A DNA stretch of 48,151 bases. Origin: Actinocatenispora comari (GTDB lineage Bacteria; Actinomycetota; Actinomycetes; Mycobacteriales; Micromonosporaceae). A model generated the notes under the pieces. That model had not been told where the DNA came from. It did not search any database and saw nothing but the letters and a program-made list of their open reading frames with translations. Positions 31,440 to 37,449 of this stretch are shown in pieces (the first letter of the stretch is position 1; every line of letters begins with the position of its first letter). The stretch covers positions 1 through 48,151 of the forward strand of contig NZ_BOPO01000123.1 in the NCBI RefSeq assembly GCF_017312725.1. The letters run 5' to 3'. The position numbers and the translations under genes are program-made.

Positions 31440-32258
31440 TCAGCGGCCGAAGCCGGCGGCGAGGCCGCGGAGCAGGTGCCGGCGGCCGAACAGGTAGAGG
31501 GCGAGCATCGGCAGCGCGGACAGCACGACGGCGGCCATCAGGCCGGGCACGTCGGTACCGTGCTGGCCCTGGAAGTTCCACAGTCCCAGCGGCAGCACCC
31601 GCCAGCGGGAACTCTGCGTCAGCACCAGCGGGAACAGGATGCCGTTCCAGGCGTTGAGACCGCTGACGATCCCGACGGTGATCAACCCTGGCCGGGACAG
31701 CGGCAGCACCAGCCGGAGGAACACCCGGCCGTTGCCGGCGCCGTCCAGCTCCATCGACTGGTACAGCTCGTCCGGGATGTCGCGCAGCGAGCTGGTCAGC
31801 ACCACGATCGCCAGCGGCAGCGAGAACGCCGCGGTGGGCAGCACGATCGCGGTGAGCGAGTCGTACAGCTTCAGCCGGGTGATGATCAGGTACACCGGGA
31901 CGATCACCGCCTGCGCCGGGATCGCGAGGCCGAACAGGAACACCGACAGGCCGGCCCGGACCAGCCGGCTGCGGTTGCGCACGATCGCGTACGCGGCGGG
32001 CAGCGCGGCGCCGAGGGTGAGCGCGATCGTCGCGACGGTGACGATCGCGCTGTTGCGCAGGAAGCCGCTGAACCCCAAGCGCAGCGCCCGGCCGTAATTG
32101 TCCAGGCTCAGGTCGGTCGGCACCGGCAGCGCGCCGTGCGACAGGTACGCGTCGGCCGGCCGCAGGCTGGTCACCACGATGAAGTAGACCGGGATCGCCA
32201 CCACCAGCAGCCACAGCACCAGCGCGACCGCGGCCGGTACCCGGGCGCGGCCCCTCAC
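31440..32258 (-). CDS. Sugar ABC transporter permease (MalG type), second importer
   Basis: The 272-residue protein has six helices, the first at residues 8-30, and the EAA loop YQSMELDGAGNGRVFLRLVLPLS. It starts with GTG. It lies last in the minus-strand order binding protein, permease, permease, and 70 bases separate it from the previous permease. The channel it forms with that partner should carry a small oligosaccharide, by analogy with the bxlEFG system probably xylobiose. No ATPase gene is nearby. Confidence 0.88.
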   Translation of the reverse strand: MRGRARVPAAVALVLWLLVVAIPVYFIVVTSLRPADAYLSHGALPVPTDLSLDNYGRALRLGFSGFLRNSAIVTVATIALTLGAALPAAYAIVRNRSRLVRAGLSVFLFGLAIPAQAVIVPVYLIITRLKLYDSLTAIVLPTAAFSLPLAIVVLTSSLRDIPDELYQSMELDGAGNGRVFLRLVLPLSRPGLITVGIVSGLNAWNGILFPLVLTQSSRWRVLPLGLWNFQGQHGTDVPGLMAAVVLSALPMLALYLFGRRHLLRGLAAGFGR

Positions 32259-32328
32259 GGCCGCCCGCCCTGCCGAGCGCCGGCAGCCGACCCGGGCGGC
32301 CGGGCGACGGTTCGACGCCCGCGGCCGT

Positions 32329-33285
32329 TCACAGCCCCTCCCGATCGCTGTCCATCCGGGCGAAGCCGCTGGCCCGCACGATCAGGACGGACAGCCCGGC
32401 GCCGACCACCACCAGCAGCAACGCCAGCGCGCTCGCGTAGCCCATGTCGAAGCCGACGAAGCCGGTGCGGTACATGTGCAGCGGCAGCACCTCGGTCGCG
32501 TCGCCCGGCCCGCCACCGGTCAGCAGCAGGATCGTCTCGAAGTAGGTCAGCGACCCGATGATCATCAATACCGAGGAGGCGACGATCGTGTGCCGCAGCT
32601 GCGGCAGCGTCACCGAGACGAACTGCCGCGCGCGGGTGGCGCCGTCCAGCGCGGCCGCCTCGTACAGCTGGGTCGGGATCTGGCGGGCCGCGCCCTGGTA
32701 GATCAGCGTGTGGAACGGCACCCACTGCCAGGCCAGCACCGCGACCACCACGTACAGCGCGCGGTGCGGGTCACCGAGCAGGTTCGGCGCCGGGACGTGC
32801 AGCGCGCTCGCGAGCGCCGCCGGTACGCCGAAGTTCGGGTCCAGCAGCGCCTGCCAGCTCAGCGCGATCGCGGCGAGCGACAGCAGCAGCGGCAGGAAGA
32901 ACACCGCCGACAGCACCGCCCGGTGCCGCTGCGGGCCCGCCGACCAGACCCCGAGCAGCAGCGCCAGCGGCGTCTGTACCAGCCAGGACACCACGGTCAG
33001 CAGCACCGTGATGCGGATGCCGTGCGGTATCTCGGAGTCGTGCAGCAGCGTCCGCCAGTTCGCCAGGCCGGCCCAGTGCGGTGCGCCCAGCCCGTTCCAC
33101 TCGGTCAGGCTCAGGTAGGCCACCACCACGATCGGCAGCAGCGCGAACACCGCGAACAGCACCGCCGCCGGCGCCAACCAGCCGAGCCCCGGCCGCTGCC
33201 GGTACGCCGCGGACCCCACGCCGCCCGCGGGCGACCGGTCACGGCGCCGGGATCCGCGCGACAGGATCGCGCTGCCGGTACTCAC
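32329..33285 (-). CDS. Sugar ABC transporter permease (MalF type), second importer
   Basis: The 318-residue protein has an N-terminal cytoplasmic tail, six helices from residue 34 (LGWLAPAAVLFAVFALLPIVVVAYLSL) and an EAA loop YEAAALDGATRARQFVSVTLPQL. The GTG start overlaps the stop of the third upstream mini-ORF (GTGA at 33282-33285), and its first codons (MSTGSAI) are a diverged copy of the repeated mini-ORF start MSTGDVI. GGAG lies five bases before the GTG inside the repeat. Confidence 0.88.
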   Translation of the reverse strand: MSTGSAILSRGSRRRDRSPAGGVGSAAYRQRPGLGWLAPAAVLFAVFALLPIVVVAYLSLTEWNGLGAPHWAGLANWRTLLHDSEIPHGIRITVLLTVVSWLVQTPLALLLGVWSAGPQRHRAVLSAVFFLPLLLSLAAIALSWQALLDPNFGVPAALASALHVPAPNLLGDPHRALYVVVAVLAWQWVPFHTLIYQGAARQIPTQLYEAAALDGATRARQFVSVTLPQLRHTIVASSVLMIIGSLTYFETILLLTGGGPGDATEVLPLHMYRTGFVGFDMGYASALALLLVVVGAGLSVLIVRASGFARMDSDREGL

Positions 33286-33323
33286 GCCGGCTCCGCGGGA
33301 ACGATCACGTCGCGGGTACTCAT
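33282..33323 (-). CDS. Mini-ORF 3 (13 residues) of the coupling repeat
   Basis: ATG at 33323 opens MSTRDVIVPAEPA and stops at 33282-33284, overlapping the permease start. It is the most diverged of three tandem 38-bp copies. Probably a coupling device rather than a functional peptide. Confidence 0.4.
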   Translation of the reverse strand: MSTRDVIVPAEPA

Positions 33324-33398
33324 GCCGGCTCCGCGGGAGGAATCACGTCGCCGGTACTCACGCCGGCTCCGCGGGAGGAATCACGTCGCCGGTGCTCA
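33285..33398 (-). repeat. Three 38-bp tandem repeats between binding protein and permease
   Basis: The unit (minus strand RTGAGYACCGGCGACGTGAT followed by TCCTCCCGCGGAGCCGGC) occurs three times with a 38-bp period; the third copy differs at a few positions. The period is not a multiple of three, yet each copy is a self-contained ORF whose stop overlaps the next start, so reading passes to the permease whatever the copy number. Confidence 0.9.
33320..33361 (-). CDS. Mini-ORF 2 (13 residues) of the coupling repeat
   Basis: GTG at 33361 opens MSTGDVIPPAEPA and stops at 33320-33322, overlapping the start of mini-ORF 3 by four bases. GGAG lies five bases before the next start. Confidence 0.4.
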   Translation of the reverse strand: MSTGDVIPPAEPA

Positions 33399-33399
33399 T
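33358..33399 (-). CDS. Mini-ORF 1 (13 residues) of the coupling repeat
   Basis: ATG at 33399 overlaps the stop of the binding-protein gene (ATGA) and opens MSTGDVIPPAEPA, ending at 33358-33360 over the start of mini-ORF 2. The peptide is identical to that of mini-ORF 2. Confidence 0.4.
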   Translation of the reverse strand: MSTGDVIPPAEPA

Positions 33400-34700
33400 G
33401 CCGCGGCGTCCATCGCCTTGACGAAACCGGCCGGGTCGAGCTGCTTGACGAACAGCTTCTGCACGTTGGTGTTCACCGCGGTGCCGACCGACGGGGACAG
33501 CGCCTGGTCCCAGGCGAGCTGGAAGTGCGGCGCCGCGGACACCAGGTCGTAGCAGAACGTGGCGAAGTCGGCGGCCTTGCTGGCGGCGAGCTTCGGCTTG
33601 ATCCCGTTCACCGGCGGGATCTCACCGATGCCGATCATGGCGTCGACGTACGGGTCGCCGGCGAGCGTGTCGAGCAGGAACCTCGTCGCCTGCTCGACGT
33701 GCTTGCCGCCCTTGACCACCGAGAAGTAGTTGGTGGGCACGCCGACCACGTTCTTCGCGTCGCCCTTGCCACCGGGTACCGACGGGAACGGCACCCAGCC
33801 GAGCTGGTGCCCGGACACGAACTTCGGGCTGGACGCGACCTGCGTCTGGTACTCCCAGGAGCCCATCACGTGCATCGCGCACTTGCCGGTCGCGAGCAGC
33901 TTCGAGGCGGCCTGGTTGTCCGAGCTGACCGACGGGTAGTTCGTGCCGAAGGCCCCCCGCTCGACCAGCTCCACGCAGTGCTCCGCGGCGGCGCGGATCG
34001 CCGGATGCCGCCAGGCGCCGGGCTTCTTCGCCACCAGCGCGTCCACCACGTCGGGGCCGCCGATCCGGTCGGTGAAGTACATCAGGTAGATCAGCTCGGT
34101 CCAGCCCTGCGCGCCGGCGAGCGCGATCGGGGTGATCCCCTTGCGCTTGAAGGTGTCCACCAGCTTCAGCAGGTCGGAATAGCTGGCCGGTGGCTTCGCG
34201 CCGGCCGCGTCGAACACCGTCTTGTTGTAGAACAACACCTCCGGCTGCATGCCGGACATCGGCAGCCCGTACCGCTTGCCGCCGAGGGTGGCGCCGGCCA
34301 GCACGCTGGGCAGGAACGCCTTGGCGACGGCGGGATGATCGGCGAGGGCGGCGTCCAGCGGCTGCACCTGGCCGGCGTCGACGAACTGGGCGAGGTTGCC
34401 GCCACCCCAGTTGAAGAAGATGTCCGGCGCGTTCGGCGAGCCCATCGCCACCTGGAGTTTCTGCTTGTACGGGTCGTTGACGTAGGTGGTCATCGCGACC
34501 TTGACCGAGGAGTGCTTGTCGAACGCGTCGATGCGCTTTTTCAGCACCGGGTTCTCGGTGTCGCTCTGCAGCACCCACAGCTGGATCGCGCCGCCCCCAC
34601 GGCCGGCCGGTCCCGAGGTGCCGCAGCCGGCCACGGTGAGCCCGGCGGCGGCCGCGCCGGCCAGGCCGAGTACCGAGCGTCGGGTCATCCGCATGGTCAT
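33396..34700 (-). CDS. Sugar ABC transporter substrate-binding lipoprotein, second importer (BxlE-like)
   Basis: The 434-residue protein has a twin-arginine motif (MTRRSVLGLAG, R7-R8) and lipobox LTVAGC with the lipidated C26. The mature part is a family-1 solute-binding protein (IQLWVLQSDTENPVLKKRIDAF, DIFFNWGGGNLAQFV, ATGKCAMHVMGSWEYQ). The order binding protein-permease-permease divergent from a GH3 gene followed by LacI matches the streptomycete bxl cluster, in which the lipoprotein binds xylobiose; this is inferred from context. GGGAGGGCGAG precedes the ATG. Confidence 0.88.
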   Translation of the reverse strand: MTMRMTRRSVLGLAGAAAAGLTVAGCGTSGPAGRGGGAIQLWVLQSDTENPVLKKRIDAFDKHSSVKVAMTTYVNDPYKQKLQVAMGSPNAPDIFFNWGGGNLAQFVDAGQVQPLDAALADHPAVAKAFLPSVLAGATLGGKRYGLPMSGMQPEVLFYNKTVFDAAGAKPPASYSDLLKLVDTFKRKGITPIALAGAQGWTELIYLMYFTDRIGGPDVVDALVAKKPGAWRHPAIRAAAEHCVELVERGAFGTNYPSVSSDNQAASKLLATGKCAMHVMGSWEYQTQVASSPKFVSGHQLGWVPFPSVPGGKGDAKNVVGVPTNYFSVVKGGKHVEQATRFLLDTLAGDPYVDAMIGIGEIPPVNGIKPKLAASKAADFATFCYDLVSAAPHFQLAWDQALSPSVGTAVNTNVQKLFVKQLDPAGFVKAMDAAA

Positions 34701-34767
34701 GTCTCGCCCTCCCGCGGGATCGGGCCACCCACCGTGCCGGCGGGCGTGACTTACATCCGAAAACTCA

Positions 34768-34780
34768 CCGAAAGTTTCGG
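34768..34780. promoter_or_regulatory. CGAAA-type operator before the second importer
   Basis: CCGAAAGTTTCGG is a perfect 6-bp-arm palindrome with one central base, 68 bases upstream of the binding-protein start. A further half site TCCGAAAA lies at 34756-34763. CGAAA repeats and palindromes are known operators of xylan genes in streptomycetes. Confidence 0.75.
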
Positions 34781-34876
34781 ATCGCTCGTAAGCTACGTCG
34801 AGGAGAGCCGCCGGTCAAGACCTCCCCATCGCCCGATTCTGCCGGTATGTTGGGTCCGGTTTGCCCATCGCGCCGC

Positions 34877-34891
34877 ACCGAAACTTTCGGT
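34877..34891. promoter_or_regulatory. CGAAA-type operator before the GH3 gene
   Basis: ACCGAAACTTTCGGT is a perfect palindrome with 7-bp arms, 27 bases before the GH3 start. Its centre is 110 bases from that of the companion site at 34768, so a LacI-type tetramer could bridge both. The LacI regulator at 37536 is the obvious ligand. Confidence 0.78.
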
Positions 34892-34917
34892 CCGGCACCG
34901 CGGCCGGGAGGAGACGG

Positions 34918-37449
34918 ATGGCCACCTGCGACAAGGACACCGCGGTGTGGCGGGACGCGTCCCGGCCCGTCGCCGAGCGGGTCGCGGACCTGCTCGCCCG
35001 GCTCACCCCGGCCGAGAAGATCGCCCAGCTGTACGGGGTGTGGGTCGGCGCCGACGCCGACGGTGCCGGCGTCGCGCCGTACCAGCACGACCTCACCGAC
35101 GAACCGGTCGACTGGCCGGTGCTGATCGCCGACGGGCTCGGCCACCTGACCCGGCCGCTGGGTACCGCACCGGTCGAGCCGGCCCGCGGTGCCGCCGCGC
35201 TCGCCGCCGCGCAGGCGGAGATCGTCGCCGCCGGCCGGTTCGGCATCCCGGCGATCGCGCACGAGGAGTGCCTGTCCGGGTTCACCGCCTGGGGCGCCAC
35301 CGTCTACCCGACGCCGCTGGCCTGGGGGGCGAGCTTCGACGCCGAGCTGGTCGAACGGGTCGGCGCCCGGATCGGTACCGCGCTGCGCTCGGTCGGCGTG
35401 CACCAGGGCATGGCGCCGGTGCTCGACGTGGTCCGCGACCCGCGCTGGGGCCGTACCGAGGAGACCATCGGCGAGGACCCGCACCTGGTCACCGCGATCG
35501 GCACCGGGTACGTGCGGGGTCTGCAGTCCGCGGGCGTGATCGCCACCCTCAAGCACTTCGCCGGGTACTCCGCCTCCCGCGCCGGCCGCAACCTCGCGCC
35601 GGTACCGATCGGGCCGCGCGAGCTCGCCGACGTGATCCTGCCGCCGTTCGAGGCCGCGGTGCGGGAGGCGGGCGCCGGCTCGGTGATGCACTCGTACGCG
35701 GAGCTCGACGGGATGCCGGTCGCCGCCGACCCGGCGCTGCTCACCACCCTGCTGCGGGACCGCTGGGGGTTCACCGGCACCGTCGTCGCCGACTACTTCG
35801 GGGTGTCGTTCCTGCAGACGCTGCACGGCGTCGCCGCCGACCCGGCGCACGCGGCGGCGCTCGCCCTCGCTGCCGGGGTGGACATCGAGCTGCCCACCGT
35901 CCGCTGCTACGGTGCGCCGCTGCGCGCCGCGCTCGCCGCCGGCCGGGTACCGGCGGAGCTGATCGACCGGGCCGCCCGGCGGGTGCTGACCCAGAAGTGC
36001 GAGCTGGGACTGCTCGACCCCGACTGGGACCCCGCTCCCCCGGCACCGGATGCCGGCTCCGGCGCGGGCAGCCCCGCCGCCGGCGGCCCGATCGACCTGG
36101 ACGGCCCGGCGGACCGGCGGCTGGCGCGCCGGCTCGCCGAGGAGTCCGTGACCCTGCTGCGCAACGAGGGCGCCGCGCTGCCGCTGCCGCCGGCGGCCCG
36201 AATCGCCGTGGTCGGGCCCAACGCCGACGACCCGCGGGCGATGCTCGGCTGCTACTCGTTCCCGAACCACGTCGGGATCCACCATCCCGAGCTGCCGCTG
36301 GGCATCCCGGTACCGTCGCTGCTCACCGCGCTGCGGGCCGAGCTGCCGGACGCCACGATCGCGTACGCCCGCGGCTGCGCCGTCGACCCCCGCCTCGACG
36401 CCGCCGCCGGCACCGACGACGCGGACGGTCCGGACGCGGGAACCGACGACGCGGACGGTCCGGACGCAGGCACCCACGACGCGGGCGGTCCGGACGCGGG
36501 CACCGAGGACGCGGGCGATCCGGACGCGGGCACCGACGACGCGGGCGGGCCGGCGCGGGCCGCTGCGCTGGCCGCGGACGCGGACGTGTGCGTCGCGGTG
36601 CTGGGTGACCGCGCCGGGCTGTTCGGCCGCGGTACCTCCGGCGAGGGCTGCGACGTGGGCGACCTGCGGCTGCCGGGGGCCCAGCACGAGCTGCTCGCCG
36701 CGCTGGTCGCGACCGGTACGCCGGTGGTGGCGGTGCTGCTCACCGGCCGGCCGTACGCGCTGGGCGAGCTGGACGAGCGGCTCGCCGCCCGGGTGCAGGC
36801 GTTCTTCCCCGGCGCGGAGGGCGGCCCGGCGCTCGCCGGCGTGCTGTCCGGCCGGGTCAGCCCGTCCGGCCGGACCCCGGTGTCGGTGCCGCACCGGCCG
36901 GACGGCCAGCCGGCCACGTACCTGGCGCCGCCGCTCGGCCACCGCACCGAGGTGTCCAGCATCGACCCGACCGCCCGGTACCCGTTCGGGCACGGCCTGT
37001 CCTACACCCGGTTCCGCTGGTCGGAGCTGCTCGTCGACGGCCGCCCGCCCGGCGACGAGCCGCCCCGCGTCCGGACCGACGGCACGCTGCGGCTGTCGGT
37101 GCTGGTACGCAACGTCGGCGACCGCACCGGCACCGAGGTGGTCCAGCTGTACCTGCACGACCCGGTGGCCGAGGTGACCCGGCCGGTGGTCCGGCTGATC
37201 GGCTCGGTGCGGGTCCCGCTGCCGCCCGGACACGCCGCGCGGGCCCACTTCACCGTCCCGGCCGAGGCCGCCGCCTACACCGGCCGGGACCTGTACCGGC
37301 TGGTCGAGCCGGGCGAGCTGGAGCTGCGGCTGTCGGCCTCCAGCGCCGAGCACCGGTACGCCGTGCCGCTGCGGCTCACCGGGCCGCACCGCCGGCTGGA
37401 CGACCGGCTGCCCGGCGCGGTGCGCGCCCGGGTCGAGGGCGCACCGTAA
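34918..37449 (+). CDS. Glycoside hydrolase family 3 enzyme, probable intracellular beta-xylosidase/beta-glucosidase
   Basis: The 843-residue protein has no signal peptide. The ATG at 34918 has GGGAGGAG; an upstream in-frame start (34861) would place the operator inside the gene. Domain order: TIM barrel (about 20-360) with the nucleophile D292 in VVADYFGVSF, alpha/beta sandwich (about 390-640) with the probable acid/base E576 in TSGEGCDVGDLRLPG, and a fibronectin-III-like C-terminus (about 705-820). The VVADYFGVSFLQ nucleophile segment, rather than SDW, is found in bxlA-type beta-xylosidases. Five 10-residue repeats (498-547) sit in a surface loop of the second domain. Confidence 0.88.
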   Translation: MATCDKDTAVWRDASRPVAERVADLLARLTPAEKIAQLYGVWVGADADGAGVAPYQHDLTDEPVDWPVLIADGLGHLTRPLGTAPVEPARGAAALAAAQAEIVAAGRFGIPAIAHEECLSGFTAWGATVYPTPLAWGASFDAELVERVGARIGTALRSVGVHQGMAPVLDVVRDPRWGRTEETIGEDPHLVTAIGTGYVRGLQSAGVIATLKHFAGYSASRAGRNLAPVPIGPRELADVILPPFEAAVREAGAGSVMHSYAELDGMPVAADPALLTTLLRDRWGFTGTVVADYFGVSFLQTLHGVAADPAHAAALALAAGVDIELPTVRCYGAPLRAALAAGRVPAELIDRAARRVLTQKCELGLLDPDWDPAPPAPDAGSGAGSPAAGGPIDLDGPADRRLARRLAEESVTLLRNEGAALPLPPAARIAVVGPNADDPRAMLGCYSFPNHVGIHHPELPLGIPVPSLLTALRAELPDATIAYARGCAVDPRLDAAAGTDDADGPDAGTDDADGPDAGTHDAGGPDAGTEDAGDPDAGTDDAGGPARAAALAADADVCVAVLGDRAGLFGRGTSGEGCDVGDLRLPGAQHELLAALVATGTPVVAVLLTGRPYALGELDERLAARVQAFFPGAEGGPALAGVLSGRVSPSGRTPVSVPHRPDGQPATYLAPPLGHRTEVSSIDPTARYPFGHGLSYTRFRWSELLVDGRPPGDEPPRVRTDGTLRLSVLVRNVGDRTGTEVVQLYLHDPVAEVTRPVVRLIGSVRVPLPPGHAARAHFTVPAEAAAYTGRDLYRLVEPGELELRLSASSAEHRYAVPLRLTGPHRRLDDRLPGAVRARVEGAP
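36409..36558 (+). repeat. 30-bp in-frame tandem repeat in the GH3 gene
   Basis: Five 30-bp units (36409, 36439, 36469, 36499, 36529) encode (G-T-x-D-A-x-x-P-D-A)n, with units GTDDADGPDA, GTDDADGPDA, GTHDAGGPDA, GTEDAGDPDA and a partial GTDDAGGP. The result is an acidic, Asp/Gly/Pro-rich loop between conserved parts of the second GH3 domain. Confidence 0.92.

Follow-up and report, generated by a model that had tools for sequence, protein, structure and literature searches.

Why should two genes of one ABC importer operon be separated by a row of very short open reading frames (ORFs) that overlap end to end? In the window (the whole 48,151-nucleotide stretch of Actinocatenispora comari DNA analysed here), three tandem 38-bp units stand on the minus strand between the genes for the solute-binding protein and a permease (Table 1). 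An earlier note on this DNA had taken them for a neutral or tunable translational relay that could set the ratio of binding protein to permease. Its description of three 38-bp repeats with 13-codon ORFs, two of them encoding identical peptides, was confirmed and its coordinates were exact. The binding-protein gene ends in GCATGA, its TGA (33398-33396) lying inside the first ATGA, and each of the four joints from this stop to the permease GTG is ATGA or GTGA (hereafter RTGA); stop and start do overlap by four bases at every joint, as the note had claimed, and GGAG does lie five bases 5' of the next start in all three units. Tracing a ribosome across the 4-bp joints by script gives ORFs of 13, 13, 13 and 318 codons.

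Table 1. Features of the binding-protein/permease junction and its context (positions in the window)
Feature	Position	Strand	Basis or detail
Upstream gene, solute-binding protein of ABC importer	33396..34700	-	Pfam SBP_bac_1, E 2e-35
38-bp unit 1	33362..33399	-	With the next 4 nt, mini-ORF 1 (33399-33358), ATG, MSTGDVIPPAEPA
38-bp unit 2	33324..33361	-	Mini-ORF 2 (33361-33320), GTG, peptide again MSTGDVIPPAEPA
38-bp unit 3	33286..33323	-	Mini-ORF 3 (33323-33282), ATG, MSTRDVIVPAEPA
GGAG, Shine-Dalgarno-like, 5 nt 5' of unit 2 start	33367..33370	-	Sequence
GGAG, 5 nt 5' of unit 3 start	33329..33332	-	Sequence
GGAG, 5 nt 5' of permease GTG	33291..33294	-	Sequence
Predicted small hairpin, unit 1 (CCGGC GA CGUG ... 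CGCG GA GCCGG), 3' arm holding part of GGAG	33363..33392	-	Folding and pair counts
Downstream gene, ABC permease, GTG at 33285 in last GTGA	32329..33285	-	Pfam BPD_transp_1, E 3e-15
Second operon permease (context)	31440..32258	-	Pfam BPD_transp_1, E 2e-14

Tandem Repeats Finder gave the array a period of 38, 3.4 copies, 90% matches and a score of 211, and the first codons of the permease (MSTGSAI) resemble a further, degenerate copy of the unit. As 38 is 2 mod 3, once a 38-bp stretch spanning an ATGA is duplicated the overlaps of the later copies are automatic. A weight matrix of the unit core scored 34.8, 34.8 and 29.7 at the array, against 9.4 at the next-best site in the window and a maximum of 13.9 in 12 first-order Markov versions of it; this chance test is partly circular, since the matrix was partly trained on the array's own units, and the independent evidence is the copies found elsewhere. 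The window holds a second tandem repeat, of 30 bp and 5.2 copies, inside a glycoside hydrolase family 3 gene (36405-36560).

Copies of the unit are dispersed within the genus. With the array as DNA query, four genus genomes (G000 to G003) gave 22, 10, 21 and 15 matches at E ≤ 1. Weak matches among these are close to the chance level; at the strong ones, chained units likewise precede other genes. There are two unit types, both of 38 bp: A (RTGAGYACCGCCGACGTGATCCTTCCCGCGGAGGCGGC) and B (RTGACCGACGACGCACTCNCCGCCGCGGAGGAGGCGGG). A model of the 28-nt core alone (R2), built from 23 known units, keeps RTGA out of the search; it gave 65 matches at E ≤ 0.003, which fall into 34 loci (12 in G000, 7 in G001, 10 in G002 and 5 in G003). 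At 22 of the 34 the core is in the sense orientation where a downstream gene starts (11, 0, 7 and 4, in the same order), and these genes are mutually unrelated. In the genus or beyond it, units occupy a kinase/response-regulator junction, stand between TrpB- and TrpA-like genes and between GatC and GatA genes, and precede CbiX, trehalose-phosphatase and ClpS genes. In G001, where R2 found no start-site copy, one match to a second model, R1, lies just 5' of an ATG (C13:108654). The 12 R2 loci away from starts comprise 11 inside scored ORFs (7 antisense, 4 sense) and one intergenic. Core copies inside genes, with 39-bp steps where they are tandem, were seen at L170, L171, L174, L175, L177, L204, L210, L211 and L293. 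Two other origins of the array were dropped: an assembly artefact, as the units are present in several genomes, and a chance duplication, as its unit occurs elsewhere.

Most loci outside the genus came from R1, a model biased towards intact joints because it contains the RTGA ends; filters were also stricter in searches of more than 40 genomes, and for both reasons weak or end-less copies were missed. Among 397 genomes of the order, 27 had an R1 match at E ≤ 2e-5: 19 in family f15, three in f1 and one each in f8, f10, f12, f14 and f16. The three in f1 are the window's own genome and two whose matches resemble ordinary coding sequence, and those in f8, f10 and f16 are weak single matches, counted as matches only. 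Arrays read from f12, f14 and f15 have RTGA joints as in the genus, and the chain of stops and starts with its Shine-Dalgarno-like GGAG is conserved between families. Qaidamihabitans albus carries three 39-bp units, a Saccharothrix MAG has one unit between GatC and GatA genes, and an f15 genome (G529) has three units between a TrpB-like C-terminus (Pfam PALP, by our reading TrpB) and TrpA (Pfam Trp_syntA). Among the named genomes behind 15 loci, three of 15 had a match at E ≤ 1e-4, the third of them (Saccharothrix ALI-22-I) as a match alone. In the class (394 genomes) only two genomes had a match at E ≤ 1e-6, both from this order. In the family (300 genomes) 66 had one at E ≤ 0.001; those outside the genus we take as mostly noise, accepting only G088 and G008, by their anatomy. 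Six other family matches were read, and the strongest, G139 and G216, were rejected as resembling ordinary coding sequence. Matches per genome outside the genus reach 17 with R1. That number occurs in G047, a 3.0-Mb genome of another family, and is dense for its size. The spread of the unit through the order (27 of 397 genomes) shows it to be no peculiarity of this operon.

Comparison of species reveals the same junctions with and without the unit. For 14 junctions, orthologs were looked for with a joined query and read; at eight junctions the unit is missing in at least one species (12 empty rows in total). In all 12 a single RTGA closes an upstream ORF and opens another that is 98 codons long or more. 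As far as the fetched piece shows it, the upstream ORF has at least 193 codons in 11 of these rows; that of J11, of 85 codons, is not an established gene. In the unit-bearing rows (15/15) the upstream ORF still closes in RTGA, which opens the first mini-ORF, the exception among them being the binding-protein/permease junction of G002, where it opens a 60-codon ORF. The cleanest case is J06, which reads GGAGCGACATGAGTACGACC in G002, is nearly identical in G003 and holds three 39-bp copies between two ATGAs in G000; at J11 the difference is exactly one 38-bp unit. Candidates for J14 from G001 (L199 and L203, 78% identity) and weaker matches for J02, J12, J13 and J15 were excluded from the ortholog counts. 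J15 in G003, which looks empty and is without the upstream gene, falls outside the counts of empty and filled rows.

Tandem copy number also varies at the species level, from 4 to 2 to 1 at J04 and from 3 to 2 at J01. The kinase/response-regulator junction (J14) has no unit in G003, one in G000 and five in G002 by eye (the scan counts three cores against five mini-ORFs), and the last joint in G002 is ATGG, with no overlap. Dispersal together with empty sites suggests that the unit may move; alternatively, the empty sites could stem from units that were precisely deleted.

In tandem arrays of the unit the step length follows a frame rule. In 36 arrays examined, translation stays linked over 66 of 67 unit-to-unit steps; 64 of the 67 measure 38 bp, or 39 bp where units are read on in frame. 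In the 31 arrays at start sites (at least two cores each), every one of the 37 steps of 38 bp has an RTGA stop/start, and every one of the 19 steps of 39 bp lacks a stop and stays in frame; of the other three, the steps of 41 and 45 bp have RTGA and the last, of 37 bp, belongs to the decayed array of G002. In the five arrays away from starts all eight steps are 39 bp and in frame. The spacer from GGAG to the start is 5 nt in 50 of 66 scored units. Such a pattern would be the expected remnant of selection for unbroken or coupled translation. It also agrees with the earlier proposal that coupling survives any copy number despite the change of frame: the anatomy of the relay, and its independence of copy number, hold here and in other genomes.

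A stricter chain test required RTGA at most 14 nt before the first core and a terminal ORF of at least 60 codons. It was passed by 42 of 58 start-site rows (18/30 in the genus and 24/28 in other genera and families). Among the 16 that failed, J05, J07 of G002 and J09 of G003 read on by another route when inspected by eye; J15, the last joint of J14 in G002 and G404 are decayed or have lost the joint. J05 of G000 and J09 of G003, with no core above threshold, were scored as failures within the 58, as were J12 of G000, J14 of G002, G047b and G342, in which the ORF is reached and a full pass was not scored.

The best explanation, to which we give a probability of about three in four, is that a dispersed family of mobile-looking 38-bp repeats, of which the array would be one site, settles in the RTGA stop/start overlaps of neighbouring genes. 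A unit would open with the old start codon, hold a 13-codon ORF and a GGAG, and close in a new RTGA. A ribosome finishing the upstream gene would then restart at the unit, stop 13 codons on and restart again until it reached the real gene, probably by serial termination-reinitiation as reviewed for -4 overlaps (PMC12548453), and in passing it may open the small hairpin that holds part of the GGAG. Because each unit rebuilds both start and RTGA, insertion and the later gain or loss of whole units should keep the genes coupled, presumably with a small effect on expression. Arrays that lack an internal RTGA would instead be read through in frame with their 39-bp step. Counting against this explanation are the 16 rows that fail the stricter chain test, a break in the chain of G002 at the binding-protein/permease junction, and the 12 of 34 core loci in the genus that lie away from starts.

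The alternative that survives best, and which is nonetheless improbable, is that an RNA hairpin is the functional part, hiding the GGAG or protecting the upstream mRNA, and that the ORFs are incidental. In 33 of the 44 distinct type-A units the bases of the helix are paired in 92.9% of cells, compared with 89.4% in shuffles, and the covariation score is 0.158 compared with 0.087; in neither measure did any of 500 shuffles reach the observed value, and of five units folded singly, three did better than their shuffled versions (z about -2). The covariation comes mostly from one pair, however, and related sequences can beat such shuffles without any structure. Furthermore, the signal was weaker in an earlier test on 16 units, unit 2 folds like unit 1 but unit 3 folds otherwise, and the fold of the whole region is not special (z -0.27). 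Support for the hairpin is moderate and chiefly from one pair, and a hairpin alone leaves the frame rule unexplained. A search of Rfam over 32000-35000 gave nothing at gathering scores.

Slightly less probable still is a local tandem duplication of the first codons of the permease, kept since its copy number tunes the ratio of binding protein to permease. The resemblance of the permease start to the unit agrees with this, as does the copy number at this junction, which is three in G000 and two in G003. A search with the binding protein gave a match at E ≤ 1e-60 in 21 of 61 genomes (its own counted). In G003 the junction holds two identical 38-bp units (MNTADVICPAEAA twice), which the start of that permease again resembles. 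G002 has a single decayed unit. Upstream of a conserved motif, the frame of its permease stays open over 55 codons, none of which is ATG, GTG, TTG or CTG; either the chain is broken or the sequence has an indel. The binding-protein search gave no such match in G001. Against a tuning duplication, the unit recurs at numerous unrelated junctions and outside this bacterial family as well, and the more distant relatives of the operon (L005-L022), read by eye, carry no unit between binding-protein and permease genes. It is also missing from orthologous junctions in some species, and its number varies at several; the suggestion that the array sets the ratio is therefore unsupported, though the array may still have some effect on it. 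What stands of the neutral or tunable relay is its anatomy, for which neutral is the best-fitting label, and not a tuner dedicated to these two proteins.

Two other features were noted at these junctions. In G003 the ortholog of the binding protein is broken into two frames (C1:2073567-2074130 and 2074115-2074864), by a sequencing indel or by real decay. In several of the distant relatives (L009, L013-L022) inverted repeats were seen by eye shortly 3' of the permease start.

Selection for the peptide itself, or for a sensing leader peptide, is very improbable: a pattern does recur, M(S)T.D..x.AE.A, but copies also lie antisense inside genes, and mean entropy by codon position (0.67/0.57/0.45 in type A, 0.64/0.49/0.50 in type B) lacks the third-position excess of a selected peptide, so that the peptide is unlikely to be the conserved feature. 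Equally implausible is a role of the units at the DNA level, such as that of a promoter for the downstream gene. Excerpts of a 2014 paper offer a precedent, stating that the senX3-regX3 region, which contains mycobacterial interspersed repetitive units (MIRUs), can drive regX3 expression (PMC4213456); a scan of 33200-33600 for sigma-70-like promoter and terminator-like consensus patterns only found neither.

Short dispersed repeats that can fold and have in-frame copies inside genes include REP and the Rickettsia palindromic elements, and in these respects the 38-bp units resemble them; we know of no tie between those elements and stop/start overlaps. A closer parallel is found in the MIRUs. 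Excerpts of a review describe these as short, seemingly mobile repeats, present in many mycobacteria, whose insertions lie at start codons and couple an internal ORF at -4 nt (PMC12548453). Other excerpts give a length of 40-100 bp and 41 locations in one genome (PMC2734929), and units of 77 and 53 bp at senX3-regX3 (PMC4213456). As far as these partial accounts go, the likeness includes short length, dispersal, tandem arrangement, position at start codons, an internal ORF joined by -4 overlaps, differences in copy number and a kinase/regulator junction among the sites of both. In contrast, the unit here has 38 bp (39 bp in frame), below the 40-100 bp that the excerpts give for MIRUs, and the family occurs in several families of the order; the likeness is one of descriptions. 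The 38-bp family appears to work like a MIRU and is not filed as one, as its length is out of range and it is likened by description only. RTGA joints with a Shine-Dalgarno sequence nearby, which it also has, liken it to termination-reinitiation at 4-bp gene overlaps; unlike the ordinary case in the excerpted text (PMC12548453), its joints run in series through 13-codon ORFs that come from a repeat. A literature search that covered few subscription papers found no report of the 38-bp family.

An unrelated element of about 80 bp (GAGCGAGCG...GGAGCGAAGCG) occupies J05 and J06 in G001. With its J06 copy as query, matches were found in 18 of 61 relatives; loci include L188, L202, L255 and L271, besides other matches. 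A fixed motif recognised it in 7 of the 28 loci given to a script. In two of the seven (L255 and L271) the element lies between long ORFs, is bounded by ATGA on both sides and has a mini-ORF of 27 or 26 codons; the other five gave no full chain by the script test.

More broadly, though this is put forward tentatively and at somewhat short of an even chance, an order-wide family of minimal mobile elements may target the stop/start overlap, rebuild it at both ends and so enter operons with hardly any penalty for expression. It would have two frame-safe forms, one of 38 bp with RTGA for overlaps and one of 39 bp in frame for overlaps and gene interiors, and the unrelated element of about 80 bp would represent the same solution in the same bacterial family. 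If the chains of the latter hold more widely, insertion into RTGA overlaps would be a common mode of existence among the small repeats of these bacteria.

MIRUs have been described as a mycobacterial trait; here a shorter family, whose empty sites are clean and whose frame rule is strict, turns up elsewhere in the order. Two old questions become testable with it: by what route repeats of this kind spread, and whether a ribosome's passage through mini-ORFs by serial reinitiation is really neutral. The orthologous junctions, ranging from 0 to 5 units, form a natural series in which the cost of a single reinitiation step could be measured, and the arrays might also be used as variable-number markers to type these actinobacteria.
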